From contig PNAS01000032.1 in the NCBI GenBank assembly GCA_003169695.1, forward strand, positions 1 to 64,000: DNA of 64,000 nucleotides, read 5' to 3'. The stretch's first letter is position 1. Every line of letters starts with the position of its first letter. Origin of the DNA: Spartobacteria bacterium. Lineage in GTDB: Bacteria; Verrucomicrobiota; Verrucomicrobiia; Chthoniobacterales; UBA10450. The notes beneath the pieces are model-generated. The model saw only the letters and a program-made list of their open reading frames with translations, searched no databases and was not told the origin of the DNA. Shown here piece after piece: positions 4,534 to 15,933 of this stretch. The position numbers were made by a program, and so were the translations under genes.

Positions 4534-4869
4534 TTATGCCGCTTTTTTTCGGCAGATCCAGCGTATTAGCCGACGAAAGCCGCTCTCTGAAGACTGCACT
4601 GCATATTTGCATTTCAGAAAACGATCATATTCAGCTCGAAAATGCGGTTTCGAAAGGACGCCGTAGGCTTCGGTAATCTCCTGCGTGCGCTGGTGGGCAT
4701 TCCGGGCGTGATCTGTTCCTGGGGCAAACTTGTCCGGAAGAAACGCCTCGATGTGAAATCGGTGCGCCGCTCTGATCTGCTCCGCCGTGGCATCCCGCGG
4801 AACGTCGAGGATATCGTAGTAATCCCGCGTGGAACTGGGTCGCATGAACACTGAGGGGATAGATTTCAC
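4534..4869 (-). CDS. J-domain (DnaJ-like) protein
   Basis: A protein of 111 residues dominated by one J domain: RDYYDILDVPRDATAEQIRA for helices I-II, then the loop FLPDKFAPGTDHAR, then EITEAYGVLSKPHFRAEYDR for helices III-IV. The signature tripeptide HPD is LPD here, so stimulation of a DnaK partner may be impaired. A short basic tail (RRLIRWICRKKAA) follows. The frame opens with GTG 4869; an ATG at 4845 is an equally good start. No dnaK or grpE is nearby, so this is a stand-alone J protein. Confidence 0.75.
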   Translation of the reverse strand: MKSIPSVFMRPSSTRDYYDILDVPRDATAEQIRAAHRFHIEAFLPDKFAPGTDHARNAHQRTQEITEAYGVLSKPHFRAEYDRFLKCKYAVQSSESGFRRLIRWICRKKAA

Positions 4870-5351
4870 TTTCTTCTCAGACGCCTTTCTTAGACAAACA
4901 GGTTTCCCCTCACGACAACGAAAATAATCTCCCGAAACGCTCGAACATTTGCGATTGCAGGCATACTACTAGCGCTGCGCGTTCCTGCCTCGGCGGTCAC
5001 GCTGACGCCCGCACCTACCGGCGCACAGATCGCTGCTCGACGCTGAAAACGTGGTTGTTGACCGTCGGCGCTATGTGAATCTCGCTGCTCTTTTGCTTGC
5101 ACTCTGGAAAGTGGCGTTTCAGGAGTGCCAGCAACAGAGTGTCGCTGTATTCAAACGGCGCGGACGGAAACGGCCGCGAAAAGAAGCTCGATTGCTAGAA
5201 ATAATTTTTGCATGCGGCCTCAACTCTTATCTACTCGGTTCCGCTTGGCGAGTCATGAGATGGGAGCGCTCTCCAAACTCATTGCTCGCTCCTGCTCCTG
5301 CCCGTTCTCGTAATCGAAGAGGATGGAGTCGAGCAGGAGGAAGAGGAGATT
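4870..5351. other. Intergenic stretch without a supported gene
   Basis: No intact gene is supported. A + frame around 4910-5046 encodes a signal-peptide-like segment (FAIAGILLALRVPASAVTL) but lacks a start codon (ACG where ATG would be expected before KIISRN) and stops soon after, so it may be the broken 5' end of a secreted-protein gene. Confidence 0.35.
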
Positions 5352-5425
5352 CGGAGTCTACGGGGCTCGAACCCGCAACCTCCGCCGTGACAGGGCGGCG
5401 CTCTAACCAATTGAGCTAAGACTCC
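5352..5425 (-). tRNA. tRNA-Asp (GUC)
   Basis: Read on the minus strand, a complete cloverleaf starts with acceptor GGAGTCT and ends with AGACTCC plus discriminator G. The D arm contains AGCTCAATTGGTTAGAGC, the anticodon loop CTGTCAC gives GUC, and the T arm contains GGGTTCGAGCC. G at the discriminator position agrees with aspartate identity. CCA is not encoded. Confidence 0.95.
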
Positions 5426-5579
5426 TCGCAAAAAGCGAAGCAGGTTAGGTCGCGCCATTCGCACCTTCAACCTCTTTTTCGTCGCGAGAGAGCGCAGAGA
5501 GGCACGCGCTTGCCGCCCACAGAGAAAACGCGACTCAGCGGAAGCTTCGCCCTCGCGATCGCGAAATGTCGGCTCCTGT

Positions 5580-5607
5580 TTGCGGCGCGTCACACGCGGC
5601 TTATAAT
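5580..5607 (+). promoter_or_regulatory. Candidate promoter of the ARC ATPase gene
   Basis: A consensus -10 box TATAAT (5602-5607) lies 16 bases after a weak -35 (TTGCGG, 5580-5585). Transcription would start about 8-10 bases before the ATG at 5623, so the mRNA would be nearly leaderless, consistent with no Shine-Dalgarno sequence before the gene. Confidence 0.45.
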
Positions 5608-5622
5608 CGCGTAATTCTCCGA

Positions 5623-7314
5623 ATGAACGACGAGCGCAGCAAAGAAGTCGAAAACACAGAAGATCGCGCGGGTAAGCGCGAATTAAGTTTGCTCGACGCA
5701 TTCGATCTTGTTCTCGCTTCCATCCCTCGGGAAGATCGGAATCGTCGCGAGTTGTTCGTCCTGCGGTCGGAAATTGCCGCCCAGGAAGAGACGATCGGCG
5801 AAGCGCAGCAAATGATCGAGAAGCTCGAGGAAGTCATCAAAAAGGTGACCTCGCCCGCGAACCGCATCGGTACTTACCTCAGCAACCCAGCGCGGGAGAC
5901 GGCGCACATTGTCGTTGGCGGAGCGGATTATTATTGCAACGTCGATCCGCGCATCCATCTCGCGAAGCTCAAAAAAGGCACGCGTGTTCTTGTCAACGAA
6001 GCCTATGTGATTGTGGGCGACCTCGGTTTCGAAACCGCCGGCCCGGTCACGAAAATCACGGAGGTGCTCGGCCCCGATCGGCTCCGTGTTGGCTCGGAAC
6101 ATGGGTTGCAGTCTTTGATCCTCCAGCGCTCCGCCGAGTTGATGAAGGCGACTCTCAAATCCGGCGATGACGTTCGGGTCGATCCGAATTACCGGATTGC
6201 GCTTGAAGTTCTTTCCCATCCGCAATCACGCGAGCATTATCTCGACGAAGTGCCGGAATTGCCCTGGGAGAAAGTCGGCGGACAGGATCAGGCGCTGCAA
6301 GCGATCAAGGACGCCATCGAGCTGCCGCTTCTCCACGGCGAGCTTTTCCAAAAATTCCAGCACGCGACGCCGAAAGGCTTCCTACTCTACGGCCCGCCCG
6401 GCTGCGGCAAAACGCTCATCGGCAAAGCCACGGCTTACAACCTGACGAAACAGCTCCGGGAAAAAACAGGCAACGAGATGAACGAATATTTCATGCACGT
6501 GAAAGGCCCGGAGATTTTGAATATGTGGGTGGGTGAATCCGAGCGGATCGTGCGTGAAATATTCTCGACCGCGCGCGAGAAACGCCGGGAAGGCTTTCTG
6601 CCTTTTCTCTTTATCGATGAAGCGGAAAGCATTCTCGGCACGCGCCGTGCCTCTCGTTATTCGAACATTCTCTCCACGCTTGTGCCGATGTTCTGCTCGG
6701 AGATGGATGGCATCGACTCGCTCCACGACGTCGTCATTATTCTCGCCTCCAATCGCGCGGACTTGATCGATCCCGCGATTCTTCGTCCCGGCCGGATCGA
6801 CCGGAAGATCAAGGTAAACCGGCCAAACAAGGACGGAGCGCGCGAGATCTACCGAATCTATCTCACGAACGATCTCCCGTACGACGGTGCGCTCGCCAAG
6901 GAGGCCGGCAACATCGGGGCCGCGATCGATCGGCTGGTCGAGCGCATCCTGGAAATGCAATTCGCGCGACGCGACGAAAACAAATTTCTTGAGATCACGC
7001 TGCGGAGCGGGCGAAAGGAAACTCTTTATCGGAGCGATCTCCTGAGCGGCGCGATCATCGCGTCAATCGTCGAGCGCGCAAAAGGGCTTGCCATCAAACG
7101 GGCGATCGCGACGCAGGAGGATCATGGCATCAGCGAAAGCGATTTGCAGCTATCGTTCATCGCCGAATTCAAGGAAAATGACATTTTCCCACCAACCGAT
7201 ATGACTGAAGATTGGTTCAAGCTCATCGATTACGATCCGGAAAACGTCGTGAAAATTTCGCCGGTGCGCCGGGAAGAGCAGTCAAAACTGCCCAACCATC
7301 GCGGTGTGATTTAG
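5623..7314 (+). CDS. arc: Proteasome-associated AAA ATPase (ARC/Mpa family)
   Basis: A hexameric ring ATPase that, in pupylation systems, unfolds modified proteins and feeds them to the 20S proteasome. From ATG 5623 it has 563 residues: an N-terminal coiled coil (about 40-75), two OB-like domains (about 80-205), then the AAA domain with Walker A GPPGCGKT (257-264), Walker B FLFIDEAE (328-335) and arginine-finger region RPGRIDR (388-394). Order and length match Mpa. Two differences stand out: the pore loop reads KGPEILNMWVGESE, with Trp where Mpa has Tyr (NKYVG), and the C-terminus is NHRGVI, lacking the GQYL tail by which Mpa opens the 20S gate. An upstream in-frame ATG (5566) is less likely. 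Dop lies 4.3 kb downstream; no proteasome subunits are in the window. Confidence 0.93.
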   Translation: MNDERSKEVENTEDRAGKRELSLLDAFDLVLASIPREDRNRRELFVLRSEIAAQEETIGEAQQMIEKLEEVIKKVTSPANRIGTYLSNPARETAHIVVGGADYYCNVDPRIHLAKLKKGTRVLVNEAYVIVGDLGFETAGPVTKITEVLGPDRLRVGSEHGLQSLILQRSAELMKATLKSGDDVRVDPNYRIALEVLSHPQSREHYLDEVPELPWEKVGGQDQALQAIKDAIELPLLHGELFQKFQHATPKGFLLYGPPGCGKTLIGKATAYNLTKQLREKTGNEMNEYFMHVKGPEILNMWVGESERIVREIFSTAREKRREGFLPFLFIDEAESILGTRRASRYSNILSTLVPMFCSEMDGIDSLHDVVIILASNRADLIDPAILRPGRIDRKIKVNRPNKDGAREIYRIYLTNDLPYDGALAKEAGNIGAAIDRLVERILEMQFARRDENKFLEITLRSGRKETLYRSDLLSGAIIASIVERAKGLAIKRAIATQEDHGISESDLQLSFIAEFKENDIFPPTDMTEDWFKLIDYDPENVVKISPVRREEQSKLPNHRGVI

Positions 7315-7401
7315 ATGGATTGTGCGCTCCGTCGCACGATTTTTTCATTTCGCGGCTGCCCTGCCATTCTTTGTCATCGAGCGCGGAGCGCTCGATCCAC
7401 C
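7315..7401. repeat. Dispersed ~90-bp repeat with inverted ends, copy A
   Basis: Left end ATGGATTGTGCGCTCCGTCG, right end GCGCGGAGCGCTCGATCCACC (split: GCGCGGAGCG, CTCGATCCACC). The ends are inverted copies of each other. The same layout recurs at 9278, 21466, 26954 and, degraded, 34855. Confidence 0.7.
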
Positions 7402-7473
7402 CGTGTCATTCAGTATGCAAAGCGACCGAAAATCGCTTCCGCTCTCCCCTGTACGTCGGTTAGCATCGGCCGC

Positions 7474-9273
7474 ATGAAATGGATCGCTCGCTTCATTGCT
7501 CTGTCGATAGTCATGGCGGCGCTTGGCCCGATCTTGCGCGCCCAACTGACGCCAGAGCCTAGAACCGACGTTTCGAACAAGGCGCTCATCACGAAAGCGA
7601 CGCCAGCGGTCAGTCCGCCCTCGAACAAGACTGGCACTGCAGACATCGCCGCGCTTCACAAGATGGCCGACGATTATTACGCGTGGCGTAATGAAAATTA
7701 TCCTGTCGGCAGCAGCGATTCCGGACTCCACACCTGGGATGATCGCCTGACCGACTACTCTGCCGAAAAGATTTTGGAGCGCGCACAGCACGTCCGTAAA
7801 TTACTTGATCGGGTTCGCGCCCTGGCTGCCGCCAACTGGCCGAAGGATGATCGGATCGACGGGATGCTCTTCCGCTCGCAGCTGGAAGGCGTTGACTTCA
7901 ACAGTCGCGTGCTGGGATCAGAAAATACAGACCCGCAAGTTTACGTCGGCGAATGCACGAACGGGATTTTTTCACTGCTAAAAAAGGAATACGACGCACC
8001 GCGCAAACGCGCGCTCGCCGCGACGGCACGTCTCAAACAGATGCCGGCTATGCTCGCCCAAGGCGAGCGCAATTTGCAGAAACCGGTCAGACTTTTCGCG
8101 GAGTTCGCGATTGCTTCCGCGCGCGCAGTCGATCCACTCTTCAACGACAGCCTCATGACGCTGGCGCGCGATCTCCCGCCTAACGAGCGCGACGATCTGG
8201 TGAAAGCGCGCGAGGCCGCGCTGACGGCGATTCATAGTTTCGCTGATCGACTGGAAAAACGTTTGCCCTCAATGGTGGCCTTCGCGCCGATGGGGACGGT
8301 GAATTACAATTACTACCTCAAGCACGTGCTCCTGCTCCCGCTGGATGCGCAACAGGTGGAGATGTTGGGCCGCGCGGAGCTGGCGCGTTATCGCGCGCTC
8401 GAATCCCTTCTGCCCGATCCGTCGCTCGCCGATCCGAACCCAGTACGCAGCAAGAACATTCCGCCGGATCAGGCGTCGTTCCTCAAAGCGTATGAAAGCC
8501 GCGAGCAGGAGATGATTGATTTCCTGAAAGAACATCATCTCGTGACAGTCCCCGATTATCTCGGGCACTTCGAAATTCGCCAGCTGCCCGAAGCGTTCAA
8601 GCCAACCAGTCCTGGCGGCTTCATGAATCCGCCGGGCGTCTACGACAAAGACCCAACCGGTTTTTATTTCATCCCGACCTACAACCCTCAGTCGAAGAAT
8701 TTCTACATCCGCGCGGCGATTGAAGACCCACGACCGATCCTCGGGCATGAAGGCATTCCCGGACATTTCATGCAACTCTCGATCGCGAACCATCTCACCG
8801 ACGAAATCCGCCGCCAGCATAGCGATGGCGTGTTCGTCGAAGGCTGGGCGCTCTACGGCGAGGAGATGCTCATGCGCACCGGCCTTTATCCGGAAAACTC
8901 CGCTTCACAAGGCCAGATTCTGCGGCTCTCTCGCTACCGCTCCGCGCGCATTGGAGTCGACGTGAATTTGCACACCGGCCAGTGGACGTTCGACCAGGCC
9001 GTCCAGTATTTCATGGAAGCGGGGGGGCTCGATCGCGAAGCAGCGGAGGGAGAAGCCGCGGGCGCGGCTTCCAGTCCCACCCAAAAGATCAGCTACATCG
9101 TCGGGAAATGGCAGATCATGAATCTGCTTGGCCGTTATCGCGATAAAGCCGGCGCCAATTTCCGTCTCGGCCAATTCCACGACGACCTGATCAAGAACGG
9201 CAGCCTCCCGCTCTCAATCGTCGAATGGATCCTCCTCGACGACCCGTCGTCCGCCGAGCAAGTGATGCGCTAG
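7474..9273 (+). CDS. DUF885 family secreted metallopeptidase-like protein
   Basis: A protein of about 600 residues. The frame is open upstream through the repeat, but ATG 7474 begins a signal peptide (MKWIARFIALSIVMAALGPI, cleavage near LRAQ), so it is the natural start. The body is a DUF885 domain, with the family's zinc-site pattern HEGIPGHFMQ in the last third and a conserved Glu-rich helix after it (GVFVEGWALYGEEM). DUF885 proteins are helical and resemble M32-type carboxypeptidases; many are predicted periplasmic peptidases. It stands between repeat copies A and B, so it is likely its own transcript. Confidence 0.85.
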   Translation: MKWIARFIALSIVMAALGPILRAQLTPEPRTDVSNKALITKATPAVSPPSNKTGTADIAALHKMADDYYAWRNENYPVGSSDSGLHTWDDRLTDYSAEKILERAQHVRKLLDRVRALAAANWPKDDRIDGMLFRSQLEGVDFNSRVLGSENTDPQVYVGECTNGIFSLLKKEYDAPRKRALAATARLKQMPAMLAQGERNLQKPVRLFAEFAIASARAVDPLFNDSLMTLARDLPPNERDDLVKAREAALTAIHSFADRLEKRLPSMVAFAPMGTVNYNYYLKHVLLLPLDAQQVEMLGRAELARYRALESLLPDPSLADPNPVRSKNIPPDQASFLKAYESREQEMIDFLKEHHLVTVPDYLGHFEIRQLPEAFKPTSPGGFMNPPGVYDKDPTGFYFIPTYNPQSKNFYIRAAIEDPRPILGHEGIPGHFMQLSIANHLTDEIRRQHSDGVFVEGWALYGEEMLMRTGLYPENSASQGQILRLSRYRSARIGVDVNLHTGQWTFDQAVQYFMEAGGLDREAAEGEAAGAASSPTQKISYIVGKWQIMNLLGRYRDKAGANFRLGQFHDDLIKNGSLPLSIVEWILLDDPSSAEQVMR

Positions 9274-9277
9274 GAAA

Positions 9278-9365
9278 GGTGGACCGTGCGCTCCGTCGCA
9301 CGGTGGCAAACGTGCCGGCGAAGCCGGGAAATAGAAACATCGCGCGGCGGAGCGCGCGATCCACC
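9278..9365. repeat. Dispersed ~90-bp repeat with inverted ends, copy B
   Basis: Left end GGTGGACCGTGCGCTCCGTC, right end GGCGGAGCGCGCGATCCACC. Starts 4 bases after the DUF885 stop. Middle contains GGCAAACGTGCCGGCGAAGC. Clear member of the family at 7315, 21466 and 26954. Confidence 0.75.
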
Positions 9366-9415
9366 CAGACCTCTGATTTCATCTCTGGACCCCGGTTTTC
9401 GCGTTACACTCGCGA

Positions 9416-10618
9416 ATGTCTGGTGACGCCAACTCGGTCCTTATCATCGGCGGCGGCCCAGCCGGACTGCGTGCCGCGGAAGTGGCGAACGCCGCGGGGG
9501 CGCGCGTCGTCGTGTGCGATGCGCAACGTTCCGTCGGCCGGAAATTTCTCGTCGCCGGCCGAGGAGGACTCAATCTCACGCACGGCGAGCCGGTGGAAGA
9601 CTTCCCGCATCGCTATGTCGACGAACCGGATCGCTGGCGCGATTTGCTCCGCGAATTCGGCCCGGACGATTTGCGCGCTTGGGCGGCGAAACTAGGTGTC
9701 GAAACTTACGTTGGGACGAGCAAACGCGTTTTTCCGCTTGGACAAAAAGCCGCAGGACTCTTGCGCGCATGGCTCAGACGTCTGCGCGCGAGCGGCGTAG
9801 AATTTCGCATTGGTTCGCGCTTGGTCGATCTCGGACGCGAACGTGATGGCTGGCGCGCCGAGTTCCAAACTGTTGACAGGACGTTCTCGCTCACTGCTGA
9901 TGCGATCGTTCTCGCGCTCGGCGGCGCCTCGTGGCCGGAAACCGGATCAGACGGGATATGGCCCGCGATTCTGGCCGCTCACGGAGTGGATGTCGCTCCG
10001 TGGGTTCCGGCGAACTGCGGATGGGGAGTCGACTGGCCTTCCGAGTTGCTCGCCCGTGTGGAAGGATTGCCTCTAAAAAATCTCACCGTGCGCGCGGACC
10101 AAGAATCAGTCTCGGGCGAATTGCTCATCACGCGCCATGGGCTCGAAGGAGGCGCCATTTATCGTCTTGGCCGGACGCTTCGCTCGATGAAGCAGCCGCG
10201 TTTGGAGATCGATCTCAAACCGCAGCTTTCGGTCGAAACGATGCGCGAGCGCGCTATCAGTCCGCCTGAGGCACGCGATTGGTTCCACGCCTGGAAGCTG
10301 AGTCCGGCGGCTGTCGTGTTGCTCGAAACGTTCTATGCAGAAGACTGCAACGATCGCGAACGACTGATGGCCCGCGCGAAGAATTTCACGCTGCCGCTGC
10401 GCGGCCCGCGCCCGATCGCGGAAGCGATTTCTTCCGCCGGCGGCGTGCGCTGGTGCGAGCTCGATCAGTCTCTTATGTTGCGCAAGCTTCCCGGCGTTTT
10501 CGTTGCCGGCGAGATGATCGATTGGGAAGCGCCCACCGGAGGCTATCTTCTGCAAGGCTGTTTCGCGACCGGCACCCGTGCCGGCCGCGTCGCCGCAGGG
10601 AGGGGCGCCGAATGTTAG
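9416..10618 (+). CDS. HI0933-like FAD-dependent oxidoreductase (PP_4765 subfamily)
   Basis: A flavoprotein of 400 residues. The N-terminal Rossmann motif VLIIGGGPAGLRAAE binds FAD; GRKFLVAGRGGLNLTHGE is the diagnostic HI0933-family segment; the C-terminal GGYLLQGCFATGTRAGRVAA closes the FAD site. The segment VFAGEMIDWEAPTGGYLLQG-like pattern is typical of the short PP_4765 branch. Substrate unknown; no membrane segment or signal peptide. ATG 9416 lies 51 bases after repeat copy B, with no strong ribosome-binding site. It sits between the ARC and Dop genes on the same strand, but no functional link to pupylation is known. Confidence 0.88.
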   Translation: MSGDANSVLIIGGGPAGLRAAEVANAAGARVVVCDAQRSVGRKFLVAGRGGLNLTHGEPVEDFPHRYVDEPDRWRDLLREFGPDDLRAWAAKLGVETYVGTSKRVFPLGQKAAGLLRAWLRRLRASGVEFRIGSRLVDLGRERDGWRAEFQTVDRTFSLTADAIVLALGGASWPETGSDGIWPAILAAHGVDVAPWVPANCGWGVDWPSELLARVEGLPLKNLTVRADQESVSGELLITRHGLEGGAIYRLGRTLRSMKQPRLEIDLKPQLSVETMRERAISPPEARDWFHAWKLSPAAVVLLETFYAEDCNDRERLMARAKNFTLPLRGPRPIAEAISSAGGVRWCELDQSLMLRKLPGVFVAGEMIDWEAPTGGYLLQGCFATGTRAGRVAAGRGAEC

Positions 10619-10684
10619 CGCTCAATTGCAAAGGGGATGGCGGTCCTGTGAGCAACGCCGGCATCTCGCCAGTTTAGCGCCACT

Positions 10685-11221
10685 TTATCTCGCGCGGTTC
10701 GTTCGAAGCACGAAACTTGCGGCCGCAGTGCGATTCTCAACGCCAAGCTTCGGGAAGATCCGCTCGAGATATTTGCCGATCGTTCCTGTTTTCAAACTCG
10801 AAATTTCGCCGATCTCTGCGTTGGTCTTACCGCGCGCGACCCATGAGAGCACTTCTGTTTGCCGCTCCGTCAAGGCGCAGCGCCCGCCATTGCTCGCGGG
10901 GATTCCCCGATTCTGTTGCAACAACAGACAGACCGAATTAGCTTCACGACAAAGCAGTTGAACGCAGAGTCGTCTTCCTGGCTGGTCCACGATGAATCTC
11001 GACGGCTGCCCCCCGGAGGTCCCGTCAGAAAGCCAACGGGTTATTGCCTCCGGGAGGCGATCCGAGGGGGAGGCCGCCGCGAAAAGAGCCCTCATCCAAA
11101 GATCCGCTCGCGCCGTCGCAAACTGACTCCGCCCGTCCGGCGACACGACAAGCAGCGCTTGCAGGGCCTCAGCCGGATCTGGGGCGCGGTCGGTTTGGTC
11201 GGAGGATGGATCTAAGGACAT
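10685..11221 (-). CDS. LuxR-type DNA-binding regulator
   Basis: A protein of 178 residues with a C-terminal helix-turn-helix of the LuxR/GerE type: LTERQTEVLSWVARGKTNAE followed by IGEISSLKTGTIGKYLERIF and KLGVENRTAAASF. The N-terminal 110 residues (VVSPDGRSQFATARADLWMRAL) resemble a degenerate PAS-like sensing region, without a receiver domain or phosphorylated Asp. It is read against the flanking flavoprotein and Dop genes and could regulate either, but no operator is identified. ATG 11221 has no clear alternative. Confidence 0.85.
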   Translation of the reverse strand: MSLDPSSDQTDRAPDPAEALQALLVVSPDGRSQFATARADLWMRALFAAASPSDRLPEAITRWLSDGTSGGQPSRFIVDQPGRRLCVQLLCREANSVCLLLQQNRGIPASNGGRCALTERQTEVLSWVARGKTNAEIGEISSLKTGTIGKYLERIFPKLGVENRTAAASFVLRTNRAR

Positions 11222-11601
11222 GGTCTAAAAAGTGACTACGGGATCCGCCCGTCAAAGTTGGCGAATTTCTTCAAGAACTCTTGATTCTCCGTCTGAGCGG
11301 ACGCTTCAGATGTGGGCTGCTGGAATAACGCCCGCCGCTCCCTGGCGGAAACACCCCCGGGTTCGTCGCATCTTGCGCCCCTTCACGCACCGACCCGGGA
11401 GCCCTACTGGCGACCCACTACCATCAGGGAATCATCCCCAGCACGCGCTTAATCAAGGCGCCATTGCCTGGCGGTTGATAGTGGCGAAAGCCAGGCTGCG
11501 GGCGGGGCTGCATCTGATTTGCTCCTCGCAAATCGCGCCCGCGCGCGCCGATCAACCATCCCGTTTCGACTAGCGGGCGCGGTGCAGTATGTTGAGCGGC
11601 G
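11222..11601. other. Gap upstream of dop with possible small minus-strand frames
   Basis: No gene is certain. On the minus strand one frame ends MQPRPQPGFRHYQPPGNGAL-IKRVLGMIP (stop at 11424), and another, further along, ends ENQEFLKKFANFDGRIP (stop near 11246). Both look protein-like (Pro/Gln-rich, then charged) but lack starts and are in different frames; they may be remnants of one broken gene or a small unrecognised one. The last 20 bases hold the dop start region, with no strong ribosome-binding site. Confidence 0.3.
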
Positions 11602-13143
11602 ATGAAGAGAGTCTTGGGGATCGAGACGGAATACGGGATCACGATTCAGGGCACCGAATCAGTGGACGTAGTTGCCGAATCGATCGAGCTGGTGCGCTCC
11701 TACACGGAGCATGGCGCCCACATGAAATGGGATTACGGCCTCGAAGATCCGCATCGCGATGCGCGTGGGTTCAGGGCGGCGGAGCTGCTCCAGGACGCGG
11801 ATGAATCGGCCTACTACGAGATTGATAAGAATCGGCCGCTGAGCTTCGAGGAGATTAAAAGCGATCTCGTCCTGTCGAATGGCGCGCGCTTTTACAACGA
11901 TCACGCGCATCCAGAATACTCGACTCCGGAATGCACGACGCTGCGGCAGTTGGTCGCGCACGAAAAAGCCGGCGAACGGATTCTGGCGGAGTGTGCACGT
12001 CGGAGGAATTTGAAACTCCCGGCGAACCAGGAGGTACGGTTGTACAAGAACAACACCGATTTCGTCGGCCACAGTTACGGATGCCACGATAATTACCTGA
12101 TGCGGCGCGATGTACCGTGGGATCAGCTGGTCGCCGGCGTGCTGCCATTTTTGATTACGCGGCAAATCTTCGCCGGCGTCGGCAAAATGGGAATCGAAGC
12201 GGAGAGCGTCGCGGGTCAACCGGGAGTGTTTCAGATTTCGCAGCGGGCCGACTTCTTCAGCGCGCTCGTAAGCATCGATACGATGAACAAGCGACCGCTC
12301 GTAAATACGCGCGACGAGCCGCACGCGGACGCCAACCTTTACCGGCGTTTTCACGTGATCATCGGTGACTCGAACATGAGCGAGTGGGCGACGGCGTTGA
12401 AGGCCGGGACGACTGCGCTCGTGCTCGATCTCATTGAACGGGGGGAAGCGCCGCAGATCGAAATCGCGCAACCGATCGATGCGACAAAATCCATCAGCCG
12501 CGACCAGAATCATGATTGGATCATCGAATTGACCGATGGGCGCAAGATTTCCGCGATCGATGTGCAGCGGCTCTATTTGAAAGCGGCGCAGAAGGTCGTG
12601 ACGGACGATGCGGAAACGATCTGGCTCTTGCTGGAATGGGAAACGGTGCTGAATGATCTCGAGCGCGATGTGGCGCTGACCCGCGACCGCGTGGATTGGG
12701 TGGCGAAGAAGTTTTTGCTCGGCGCGTTTCGCGAAGAAGAGAAGCTTTCGTGGACCGATCCGTGGCTCCAAGCGATCGACCTCGAATATCACAACATCCT
12801 CCCGGACCAAGGCCTGTTTTACGAGTTGCCGCGGCAGGGTTCGATGAGGAGCATCGTGAGCGAGGAAGAAATTAAGAGCGCGATCTTCACGCCGCCGGAC
12901 ACGACACGCGCATATTTTCGCGGCCGGTCGGTCGCGAGATTTGACGACAGGATCACCTCAATTCAGTGGGATGAAATTGTGTTCAACAAGGGTGGCCGAC
13001 CGCTTCGCATCACGCTTCCCGAGCCATCAACCGACATGCGACTTGAAGGACTGAACGCGGTGGTGCGTGACTCGCAAGACTACACTGAGTTCCTTCGGGG
13101 AATTTCCTCGCGCGCAGGTGCCGCTGTGCCGGACGAAAAGTAA
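11602..13143 (+). CDS. dop: Dop: Pup deamidase/depupylase family carboxylate-amine ligase fold enzyme
   Basis: A protein of 513 residues closely matching Dop rather than PafA. In Mycobacterium, Dop deamidates the C-terminal Gln of Pup and removes Pup from substrates, using ATP. Metal/ATP-binding glutamates are in LGIETEYGI (E8, E10). The catalytic Asp is in NDHAHPEYS (D100), the Dop signature; PafA has DVGSHPE there. The Dop-specific loop is present (WDYGLEDPHRDARGF and the acidic stretch after it, about 43-88). Further matches are YKNNTD, NTRDEPHAD, HVIIGDSNMSE, and the C-terminal TRAYFRGRS. ATG 11602 is the only reasonable start. No pafA, pup/UBact or prcBA is seen here; ARC lies upstream on the same strand. 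Confidence 0.95.
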   Translation: MKRVLGIETEYGITIQGTESVDVVAESIELVRSYTEHGAHMKWDYGLEDPHRDARGFRAAELLQDADESAYYEIDKNRPLSFEEIKSDLVLSNGARFYNDHAHPEYSTPECTTLRQLVAHEKAGERILAECARRRNLKLPANQEVRLYKNNTDFVGHSYGCHDNYLMRRDVPWDQLVAGVLPFLITRQIFAGVGKMGIEAESVAGQPGVFQISQRADFFSALVSIDTMNKRPLVNTRDEPHADANLYRRFHVIIGDSNMSEWATALKAGTTALVLDLIERGEAPQIEIAQPIDATKSISRDQNHDWIIELTDGRKISAIDVQRLYLKAAQKVVTDDAETIWLLLEWETVLNDLERDVALTRDRVDWVAKKFLLGAFREEEKLSWTDPWLQAIDLEYHNILPDQGLFYELPRQGSMRSIVSEEEIKSAIFTPPDTTRAYFRGRSVARFDDRITSIQWDEIVFNKGGRPLRITLPEPSTDMRLEGLNAVVRDSQDYTEFLRGISSRAGAAVPDEK

Positions 13144-13235
13144 CAGCGGCGTTACTAACCTCCCCTTGCTCGGCGGCGCCGATCGTAGCAGGCATTCCAC
13201 AAATCGCCCAGGAGTTCGGCAGGGATAAGGGCAAT

Positions 13236-13374
13236 GTGCCCTTCCGTAACAACGGGGGCAGACTGGCGATGGACGGAAATCAACACCCCGGCACCGGTAC
13301 CGAGCGGCCTTTCGTTGCAGGTTTTCGAAACAACGCCGCCGGTCCTCAGCCGCCAGATTCGGGACCAAGGTAAG
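13236..13374 (+). CDS. Possible small disordered protein downstream of dop
   Basis: A speculative frame of about 45 codons: GTG 13236 preceded by AAGG, ending with the stop at 13372-13374, 3 bases before the convergent phosphorylase gene. The peptide is Gly/Asn/Pro-rich and has no hydrophobic core (FRNNGGRLAMDGNQHPGTG, ending QPPDSGPR). Its place just after dop is where pup-type genes often sit, and low-complexity character would fit. However, it ends in Arg, not the Gln/Glu needed by Pup or UBact, so it is not called a modifier. It could also be chance. Confidence 0.2.
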
Positions 13375-13377
13375 CGC

Positions 13378-15933
13378 CTACGACCAGGTGATCAGGCGCA
13401 ACTCGTGCGTTTGCATGAGATTCGGATGGATCGGGACAACGCGAACGCTAAAGCCGTAGGTTCCGCTGTCGGAAGCCGGGACCGAGCCTCGGTAAGTGTA
13501 ATTCCCCTCGCCTTCCGCCGGCGAGCTCCCGTCGAGAACCGTCACGGCAGGATTTCTGATTCCGCCGTTGTCGGCCTCCCCGTGATAAGCCTCGACGCGA
13601 ACGTGGTCCGGCGCGACGGCGCCGAGATGAACTTTCGCAGAAACCTGCAATGTTTCGCCGACTTGGATATTTTGGCGATCAGTGTTGCCGACCTGAACAT
13701 CCAGGATGGTCACTTGTGGCCAATCTTTGCGCATCTGCGCTTTCCACTTGCTGAGCTCTGTCGCCGCGGCGCAGTCGTCGCGCGCGAACTCCTGGTGGGC
13801 TTTGGCCGCCGGGGTGTAGAGACGCTCGGTATATTCCTTGACCATCCGATGCGTGTTAAAAACCGGAGTGACGCTGCGGATCGATTCACGCATCAACTGG
13901 AGCCAGGCGAGCGGTAATTTCCCATCCGGCTTTGCGTAATAAAGGGGAATGATCTGGTTCTCGAGGAGGTGGTAAAGGCTGCCCGCGTCCACCTCGCTTT
14001 GGAAGTCGACAGTCCCACCCTTGATTTCAGCGCCGATCGCCCAGCCGTTATTACCGTTGTAGCTCTCGCACCACCAGCCATCCAGAACGCTCAAATTCAA
14101 TCCGCCGTTTGGCGGTAGTTTCATTCCGCTCGTGCCGCTTGCCTCCAGCGGGCGGAGCGGATTGTTCAACCAAAGATCGACGCCTTGAACGAGCCGGCGC
14201 GCAATGTAGGTGTCGTAATCTTCCACGAAGACCATGCGGTTTTCGAAACCCCGTTCGCGGCTGAATTTATAGACCTGCTGGATGAGCGCCTTGCCGCCTT
14301 CATCTTGCGGATGCGATTTACCGGCGACGATGAATTGCACCGGCCGAGTGTCGTCGTTGAGGAGGCGCTTCAGACGTTCCTGATCGCTGAATAACAATGC
14401 GCCGCGTTTGTAGGTGGCGAAACGTCGCGCGAATCCGATCGTCAGAATTTCCGGGTCGAGGATGCGGTTGACGCTGCGGATGGATTCCGGCGATTCGCCG
14501 GCCCGCTCGCGCGCCATTCGGACGCGCTCCCGCACAAACTCGACCAGACGCAGTTTCAATTTCTGGTGCGTTTCCCAAAGCTGCGCATCAGGAATATCGG
14601 TCACGCGCCGCCAGAAATCCGGGTCCGTCAGATGGCCCTCCCAATCTCCGAGATATTTTTGATAGAGGGCGGAGAACTCGGGCGCCATCCACGTCTTGGT
14701 GTGCACGCCATTCGTAATGCTGGTGATGGGAACTTCGTGCCCCGGCACCCCCGCCCAGACATCTTTCCAAAGTGATCGGCTAACGTCGCCGTGCAGTTTA
14801 CTGACACCGTTTGAGTGCCGGCTGAGCCGCAAAGCCAGCACCGTCATGCTGAACGCGTCCAACGGATTCACACTCGTTTGACCCAGGCGGAAAAACTCGT
14901 CGAACGGAATTTGCAGCTGTGCGGCAAATTCGCCGAAGTATCTTTTCATCATCTCCCGCGGAAAAGCGTCGTTGCCCGCGGGTACGGGCGTGTGCGTCGT
15001 GAAAACATTGGCCGAGGCGACCACTTGCAAGGCGGAATAAAAATCCAGTTTCTTCTCAGCCACGTTCAGCCGAATGCGCTCGAGCGAGAGGAAGGCCGAG
15101 TGACCTTCGTTCATGTGAAAAACCTCCGCTTCGATGCCGAGAGCGATGAGCGCTCTGACGCCGCCGATGCCAAGGACGATTTCCTGGCGGATGCGCATTT
15201 CGAGATCGCCACCGTAGAGTTCGGCGGTGATCCGGCGATCTTCCGCTTTGTTCTCCGCGATATCGGTATCGAGCAAGTAGAGGCTGACACGCCCCACGTG
15301 CAGTTCCCAAATTTTCGCCCACACTTCCCGGTCGAGGAGACGGACAGAGATGAGCAGATTGCTGTCGCCGCTCCGCACTTCCTTGATCGGGAGGTGATGG
15401 AAGTTCTGGTTGAGGCTGACGGCGTGCTGGATGCCTTCCTTGTCGATCTGCTGTTTGAAGTAGCCGTGCCGGTAGAGCAATCCGATCGCAACAAAGTTCA
15501 GGTCGAGATCGCTGGCTGACTTGCAATGATCCCCGGCAAGAATGCCGAGGCCGCCTGAGTAATTCGGGATCGATTCGTGGAAACCGAATTCGGCGGAAAA
15601 ATAGGCGACCGGTTTTTCAATCGCGCTGCCCTTGCCGGTTTTTCCGTAAGTGTCTTTCCGCGCGAGATAATGGCGGAAGGCGTCGTGCACTTCCGTGAGC
15701 TCACGCAGAAAATTTTTGTCCTGAGCGACCTCCACGAGCCTCGCCTGCCGTGAAAGTTGGAGCATTCTGACGGGATTGTGGTTCGTACGATTCCAGAGCT
15801 CGGGATCGAGATGGCGGAAAAGACCCCGCGCCGAGGGTTCCCAGGTCCACCACAAATTGAAAACAATCTCGCGCAACGGCTCGAGGGTAGCCGGCAGCGT
15901 GGGGATCACATTGTATGTGTGGTAGGTCGGCAT
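13378..15933 (-). CDS. glgP: Alpha-glucan (glycogen/maltodextrin) phosphorylase
   Basis: Releases glucose-1-phosphate from alpha-1,4-glucans using pyridoxal phosphate. Length (851 residues) and the N-terminal AYF-SAEFGFHESIPNYSGGLG region place it in the short alpha-glucan phosphorylase family (TIGR02094 type), which lacks the classic N-terminal regulatory part. The cofactor lysine lies in ASGTSGMKLPPNGG, near residue 602. Other family segments are YLARKD, VFTTHTPVPAGNDAF, and ITNGVHTKTWMAPEF. The C-terminal 120 residues (WPQVTILDVQVGN and on) form the extra beta domain seen in this branch. The gene converges with dop. Start ATG 15933. Confidence 0.93.
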   Translation of the reverse strand: MPTYHTYNVIPTLPATLEPLREIVFNLWWTWEPSARGLFRHLDPELWNRTNHNPVRMLQLSRQARLVEVAQDKNFLRELTEVHDAFRHYLARKDTYGKTGKGSAIEKPVAYFSAEFGFHESIPNYSGGLGILAGDHCKSASDLDLNFVAIGLLYRHGYFKQQIDKEGIQHAVSLNQNFHHLPIKEVRSGDSNLLISVRLLDREVWAKIWELHVGRVSLYLLDTDIAENKAEDRRITAELYGGDLEMRIRQEIVLGIGGVRALIALGIEAEVFHMNEGHSAFLSLERIRLNVAEKKLDFYSALQVVASANVFTTHTPVPAGNDAFPREMMKRYFGEFAAQLQIPFDEFFRLGQTSVNPLDAFSMTVLALRLSRHSNGVSKLHGDVSRSLWKDVWAGVPGHEVPITSITNGVHTKTWMAPEFSALYQKYLGDWEGHLTDPDFWRRVTDIPDAQLWETHQKLKLRLVEFVRERVRMARERAGESPESIRSVNRILDPEILTIGFARRFATYKRGALLFSDQERLKRLLNDDTRPVQFIVAGKSHPQDEGGKALIQQVYKFSRERGFENRMVFVEDYDTYIARRLVQGVDLWLNNPLRPLEASGTSGMKLPPNGGLNLSVLDGWWCESYNGNNGWAIGAEIKGGTVDFQSEVDAGSLYHLLENQIIPLYYAKPDGKLPLAWLQLMRESIRSVTPVFNTHRMVKEYTERLYTPAAKAHQEFARDDCAAATELSKWKAQMRKDWPQVTILDVQVGNTDRQNIQVGETLQVSAKVHLGAVAPDHVRVEAYHGEADNGGIRNPAVTVLDGSSPAEGEGNYTYRGSVPASDSGTYGFSVRVVPIHPNLMQTHELRLITWS

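Follow-up and report, generated by a model that had tools for sequence, protein, structure and literature searches.

The stretch analyzed here, hereafter the window, comprises the first 64,000 nucleotides (C50:1–64000) of one contig in the draft genome of a Spartobacteria bacterium. It encodes an ARC/Mpa-type ring ATPase and a Dop-type enzyme on the same strand, separated by 4.3 kb of other genes (Table 1). The original prediction, made from the letters of this DNA, had recognized both proteins, the intervening unrelated genes, and the verrucomicrobial character of the genome, and it proved right on each count, profile and PDB matches confirming the two proteins. It had also reported no 20S proteasome subunit, PafA ligase, or modifier in the window, and genome-wide searches agreed, placing all of these on three other contigs (C84, C69, and C23). 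Judged from sequence, the ARC and Dop of the window very probably belong to a complete UBact (Pup-like) proteasome system, which has six components encoded at three loci.

ARC contains an AAA domain together with the two OB domains of proteasomal ATPases, and the motifs GPPGCGKT, FLFIDEAES, and NMWVGESER provide the Walker motifs and the aromatic pore loop; MWVGE recurred in 47 of 48 distinct ARC reads, and the pattern was not found in the other one. The best PDB matches were mycobacterial-type ring ATPases, with Mpa structures at 346 bits. In all five same-genus relatives the match began at residues 18 to 20 of the longest open reading frame, whose second methionine is residue 20, so the ATG at 5623, which had been proposed as the start, is the better choice. 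Dop matched PF03136 at 543.9 bits and the solved Dop structure 5lrt at 421.9 bits, and it scored 487.5 bits with the Dop model TIGR03688 versus 382.0 with the PafA model TIGR03686. In a tree of 42 proteins it sat in a Dop clade that was split from the PafA clade with a support of 100/100. Residues 58 to 90 correspond to the Dop-loop, which the accessible text of PMC7947786 describes as a feature of Dop that PafA lacks.

The remaining components were found elsewhere in the same genome (4.14 Mb in 85 contigs, 94% complete, 1.62% estimated contamination). Only two genes in the genome matched PF03136, the window Dop and a gene at C84:121466–122773 (420.6 bits). The protein encoded by the latter scored 316.5 bits with TIGR03686 versus 306.2 with TIGR03688, aligned without the stretch matching Dop residues 58 to 90, and fell in the PafA clade. 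UBact is a 56-residue open reading frame just upstream of prcB on C69; it ends in RQRTGQ and passed both cut-offs (NF033388, 79.3 bits, cut-off 35; PF20513, 76.5 bits, cut-off 27.8). This was the one strong UBact match in the genome; three weak matches (E 0.02–0.85) lay on C51, C17, and C6. With PF00227 we found a beta-subunit gene that runs off the end of C69 and a weak match in the gene at the end of C23, whose product, PrcA, also matched the bacterial 20S alpha model. PrcB carries ATTI...DRR, and in its orthologue from G037, a same-genus relative, the active-site threonine that follows the propeptide, residue 53, lines up with the residue that begins chain 1q5q_H. A Thr-Thr active-site start was present in all 62 PrcB loci read, with repeats and second beta genes counted.

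The ends of C69 and C23 have exactly 23 bases in common. Read across this overlap, prcB encodes 274 amino acids, 91% identical to the G037 protein. Its stop codon runs into the start of prcA, and the called UBact and prcB genes also overlap (1184–1354 and 1351 onward in our locus L005). The same UBact–prcB–prcA block stands on a single contig in five of five same-genus relatives, with UBact read in each, preceded by a divergent LysM gene and followed by an amidase gene, and the same flanks are found on C69 and C23. Given the shared bases, the overlapping genes, and the intact block with identical flanks in relatives, UBact, prcB, and prcA most likely form one operon broken by a contig end. PafA has at least 43 kb of C84 on either side, 20 kb of C69 separates UBact from the left contig end, and the left end of C50 is 5.6 kb from the start of arc; these distances mean that arc–dop, UBact–prcBA, and pafA are not neighbors hidden by contig ends.

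The components travel together among relatives. Across 117 genomes of the order, Pup_ligase was found in 47, UBact in 46, the beta-subunit model TIGR03690 in 47, and ARC above 400 bits in 44; at least one of the four was present in 48 genomes, and all four were present in 42. As for the exceptions, ARC above 400 bits was missing from G022, G053, and G071, UBact from G039, and both UBact and the beta subunit from G111, while G023 had UBact and the beta subunit only. Five of these six are drafts of at least 370 contigs, and G023 has about 110. Fourteen well-known control genomes gave no UBact match and one Pup_ligase match (Corynebacterium glutamicum); TIGR03690 matched in eight of them (none over its cut-off) and the ARC model TIGR03689 in all 14 (one over its cut-off).

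Several individual genomes showed peculiarities of these components. G023, a 96%-complete genome, has UBact and 20S subunits (L160, C66:13404–14479), with no Pup_ligase-family match at E values up to 0.001 and no ARC above 400 bits, and its genus-mate G092 has all of these; either the G023 draft has lost two unlinked loci or its system is truly reduced. All four genomes of genus g25 in the set have a second 20S beta gene off the UBact contig (G022:C519; G047:C44, L163; G065:C501; G077:C6, L162), and the three copies read (G022, G047, and G077) keep the active-site threonine motif. In G002 (C23:60423–61723, L140) the PafA match is split in two, with a gap of two bases, which resembles the effect of a frameshift or an assembly error. 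In G004 a second, weaker UBact match (C227:16626–16781, 72.4 bits) stands beside the normal one.

A number of points weigh against assigning a complete system to this genome. ARC (458.6 bits with TIGR03689, cut-off 504.75), Dop (just under the TIGR03688 cut-off of 492.3), PafA (far from the TIGR03686 cut-off of 551.3), PrcB (cut short by the contig end; 126.9 bits with TIGR03690), and PrcA (84.7 bits with TIGR03691) all fell under the NCBIfam equivalog cut-offs, so the case for orthology is built on Pfam, the tree, and synteny; PrcA was under the Pfam cut-off too (about 19.6–19.9 bits, cut-off 22.4). With phmmer the C84 protein scored higher against a Dop structure (251 bits) than against PafA (220 bits). 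A second Dop was therefore considered as its identity; the absence of a Dop-loop, the tree, and the higher TIGR03686 score led us to reject this. By themselves the beta and ARC profiles lack specificity, as their matches in eight and 14 of the 14 controls attest, and the 400-bit line for ARC was our own choice, the matches lying above 423 or below 148 bits. The junction of C69 and C23 is our join, made from the 23-base overlap and synteny rather than found on one assembled contig. The weakest step is the coupling of ARC to the 20S core, since this ARC lacks the tyrosine thought to be needed for docking.

In this order the genes form three loci, arc–dop, UBact–prcBA, and pafA, in place of the clustered arrangement dop–pup–prcB–prcA–pafA. 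In the 44 genomes with ARC, the genome under study included, arc and dop were side by side (fewer than 300 bases between profile matches) in 23, separated by 0.6 to 5.7 kb in 10, and carried by different contigs in 11; all six genomes of the window's genus belong to the second group. UBact shared a contig with Dop in none of the 42 genomes having both and with PafA in two of 42 (G003 and G030, in which the two starts are 5.8 and 7.1 kb apart). PafA and Dop shared a contig in none of the 39 genomes listed, or none of 41 when G039 and G111 are added. Many drafts of the order have short contigs; even so, 30 of 46 genomes have over 10 kb of sequence between the contig's first base and UBact. The neighbors of pafA were stable in the window's family, with DUF5069 and PhhB-like genes at 10 of 10 fetched loci and HtrA-like genes at nine of 10.

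Beyond the order, UBact exceeded its cut-off in 10 of 387 genomes of the phylum, four from this order and six from one other family of the same class, and two further matches were under the cut-off. All six genomes of that other family have an intact arc–dop–UBact–prcB–prcA–pafA cluster within about 7 kb; our guess is that they may belong to the Methylacidiphilum group. The record titles of the best 80 of 292 loci in named genomes read Verrucomicrobia or its subgroups, plus one "PVC group bacterium." A UBact locus (L227) also lies on a contig filed under Prosthecobacter debontii, which we take to be outside the order; this contig could be wrongly binned.

The original prediction had placed dop normally beside pup or UBact and prcBA, which is true of the other family, and of the accessible portions of PMC2588565 and PMC3511204, and is not true of this order. 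It had also named two results that would speak against it, a complete prcBA–pafA–UBact cluster elsewhere in the genome and a standard cluster at this site in close relatives. The first was borne out in substance, all the parts being found, though in two further loci rather than one cluster. The second was borne out in part, as arc and dop adjoin in 23 of 44 genomes of the order and the other family shows the full cluster. Read from gene order, unrooted and undated, the simplest history would have the canonical arc–dop–UBact–prcB–prcA–pafA cluster as ancestral in the class. In this order it would have been cut at two places, the dop–UBact and prcA–pafA junctions, leaving pafA still fairly near UBact in two genomes of one family. 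In the window's genus the DUF885, flavoprotein, and LuxR-type genes would later have been inserted into the arc–dop pair.

The sequences show the genes and their families, co-occurrence, and order, the PrcB threonine, the glutamine end of UBact, and the division between Dop and PafA; the reactions, the partnership, the docking, and the history are inferred from these. If the system works like the Pup system of mycobacteria, Dop would deamidate the C-terminal glutamine of UBact (TGQ to TGE) and would also take UBact off conjugates. PafA would use ATP to link the gamma-carboxylate of the resulting glutamate to lysines on its targets. The ARC hexamer would bind UBact on tagged proteins, unfold them, and feed them into a 20S core composed of PrcA and PrcB, in which removal of the propeptide would expose the active threonine of PrcB. 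The 33 distinct UBact sequences from fetched loci of the order ended in GQ (27) or GE (six), and the six from the other family in GE (five) or GQ (one). Some genomes would thus require deamidation and others would not, which leaves removal of UBact as the role that all Dops could share.

How ARC meets the core is less certain. The accessible text of PMC8755798 and PMC12288473 has proteasomal ATPases docking through a penultimate tyrosine or GQYL, and the former, in the part available, calls the penultimate tyrosine the main binding determinant. The ARC tails do not have this residue. All 38 distinct tails read in the order ended in [VI][IV] (VI in 31, II in five, and VV in two), the tails being related and the count therefore not a probability; the other family ended in VV in six of six reads. 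No tyrosine, phenylalanine, or tryptophan occurred in the last four residues of any of these 38 tails or six reads. This absence, together with the importance ascribed to the penultimate tyrosine, would speak for a system that is complete and yet has an ARC not docked on the 20S core, one that handles UBact-tagged proteins by itself, as an unfoldase or chaperone, while some other activator serves the core. We consider this unlikely. The linker before the two terminal residues is hypervariable in the order, and residues fixed behind a free linker indicate a binding end, as would fit docking of another kind. PrcA K49 was invariant in 22 of 22 distinct sequences and aligned with the lysine of HKVSELYDR in alpha chain 1q5q_A, which we take to be the docking-pocket lysine; this, too, fits another kind of docking, and in the other family arc stands in the same cluster as prcBA.

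Our guess from these sequences is that ARC would still dock on the core. We tentatively propose, giving it somewhat less than an even chance, that in this class the ATPase docks through a tyrosine-free aliphatic pair (V/I-V/I-COO−), unlike HbYX- or GQYL-docked ATPases, and that in this order the operon has been split into three separately regulated units (ring and depupylase; modifier and core; ligase), which may allow tagging, untagging, and degradation to be tuned apart.

Two further explanations would deny this genome the system altogether. The UBact and proteasome contigs could be contamination from another bin, for which the 85 contigs of the draft, its estimated contamination of 1.62%, and a UBact–prcBA locus lying at two contig ends leave some room; we regard this as very improbable, as five of five same-genus relatives have the same prcB–prcA locus with its LysM and amidase flanks and a UBact in each, and as PrcB and PrcA are 91% and 89% identical to their counterparts in G037, which is also the closest genome for Dop (86%) and PafA. 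The original prediction had left it open whether the rest of the system lay elsewhere in the genome or whether Dop and the ring worked without ligase, modifier, and proteasome for another purpose; the window itself shows only ARC and Dop, but the first of these alternatives proved right, the other parts accompany ARC and Dop in 42 of the 48 genomes having any of them, and the second, which we rate the least probable of all, is refuted for this genome unless the contigs in question are foreign. A false lead is thereby removed, as there is no proteasome-free Dop/ARC system in this genome.

The system itself is of a known kind. As in the UBact-proteasome system of Gram-negatives (NF033388, PF20513), the modifier exceeds both cut-offs and ends in TGQ or TGE, and Dop, PafA, ARC, PrcB, and PrcA are all present; the differences are three loci instead of one cluster and, perhaps, an ARC tail of two aliphatic residues. 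With the Pup-proteasome of Actinobacteria it shares the enzyme families, the predicted chemistry, and a Dop-loop in Dop and not in PafA, whereas it has UBact instead of Pup, an aliphatic pair in place of GQYL, and a broken-up dop–pup–prcBA–pafA order. Pup relatives outside Actinobacteria, including verrucomicrobia (Methylacidiphilum), were reported in 2008 (Iyer et al., PMC2588565), and the accessible part of that paper has Pup invariably adjacent to a PafA-family gene. The phylum and the components are the same here, but UBact shares a contig with Dop in 0 of 42 genomes and with PafA in two of 42, more than 5 kb away. A figure legend in PMC3511204 calls gene order rigidly conserved in all pupylation-competent organisms, and the accessible text of the same paper has pafA sometimes set apart by unrelated genes; PMC11354881, as far as its text was available, mentions UBact once in passing. 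We found no description of the split gene order or of a tyrosine-free ARC end in the literature searched, part of it available as partial text and the original UBact paper lying outside it; both are new relative to that literature, and we cannot say that they are unpublished. A supposedly rigid gene order is thus broken wherever checkable in one order of Verrucomicrobiota, and clustering appears to be a usual trait of UBact/Pup-proteasome systems rather than a necessary one.

Table 1. Features of the arc–dop region of the window
Feature	Coordinates	Strand	Basis and remarks
arc/mpa, proteasomal AAA ATPase ring subunit	5623..7314	+	563 aa; PF00004, PF17758, PF16450; longest ORF starts at 5566
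Last two arc codons, Val-Ile C terminus, candidate 20S docking end without tyrosine	7306..7311	+	tail comparison
DUF885 protein between arc and dop	7315..9273	+	PF05960, 247 bits
HI0933/TIGR03862-type flavoprotein between arc and dop	9416..10618	+	TIGR03862, 383 bits, above cut-off
LuxR-type (GerE) regulator, opposite strand	10685..11221	-	PF00196, 51.8 bits
dop, depupylase/deamidase-type enzyme	11602..13143	+	513 aa; PF03136, TIGR03688, 5lrt, tree; predicted to act on UBact
Dop stretch corresponding to the Dop-loop (residues 58–90), absent from PafA	11773..11871	+	alignment

The gap between arc and dop (7315–11601, 4287 bases) holds three genes, of which we do not think the DUF885 protein or the flavoprotein to be part of the system. 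All three recur in the gap of four of the five relatives in the genus, and the fifth, G058, has DUF885 only; over 20 fetched arc–dop loci of relatives, DUF885 adjoined arc or dop in none but those of the same genus and of G091. We also considered whether UBact might be encoded within the gap. No open reading frame of at least 30 residues listed for 4800–14000 resembled UBact by eye, and the candidate is further ruled out by the location of the genome's one UBact-profile match on C69. Beside arc, on the opposite strand (4534–4869), lies a gene for a short protein with a stretch that, judged by eye, is like a DnaJ J-domain (YYDILDVPRDATAEQIRAAHR).

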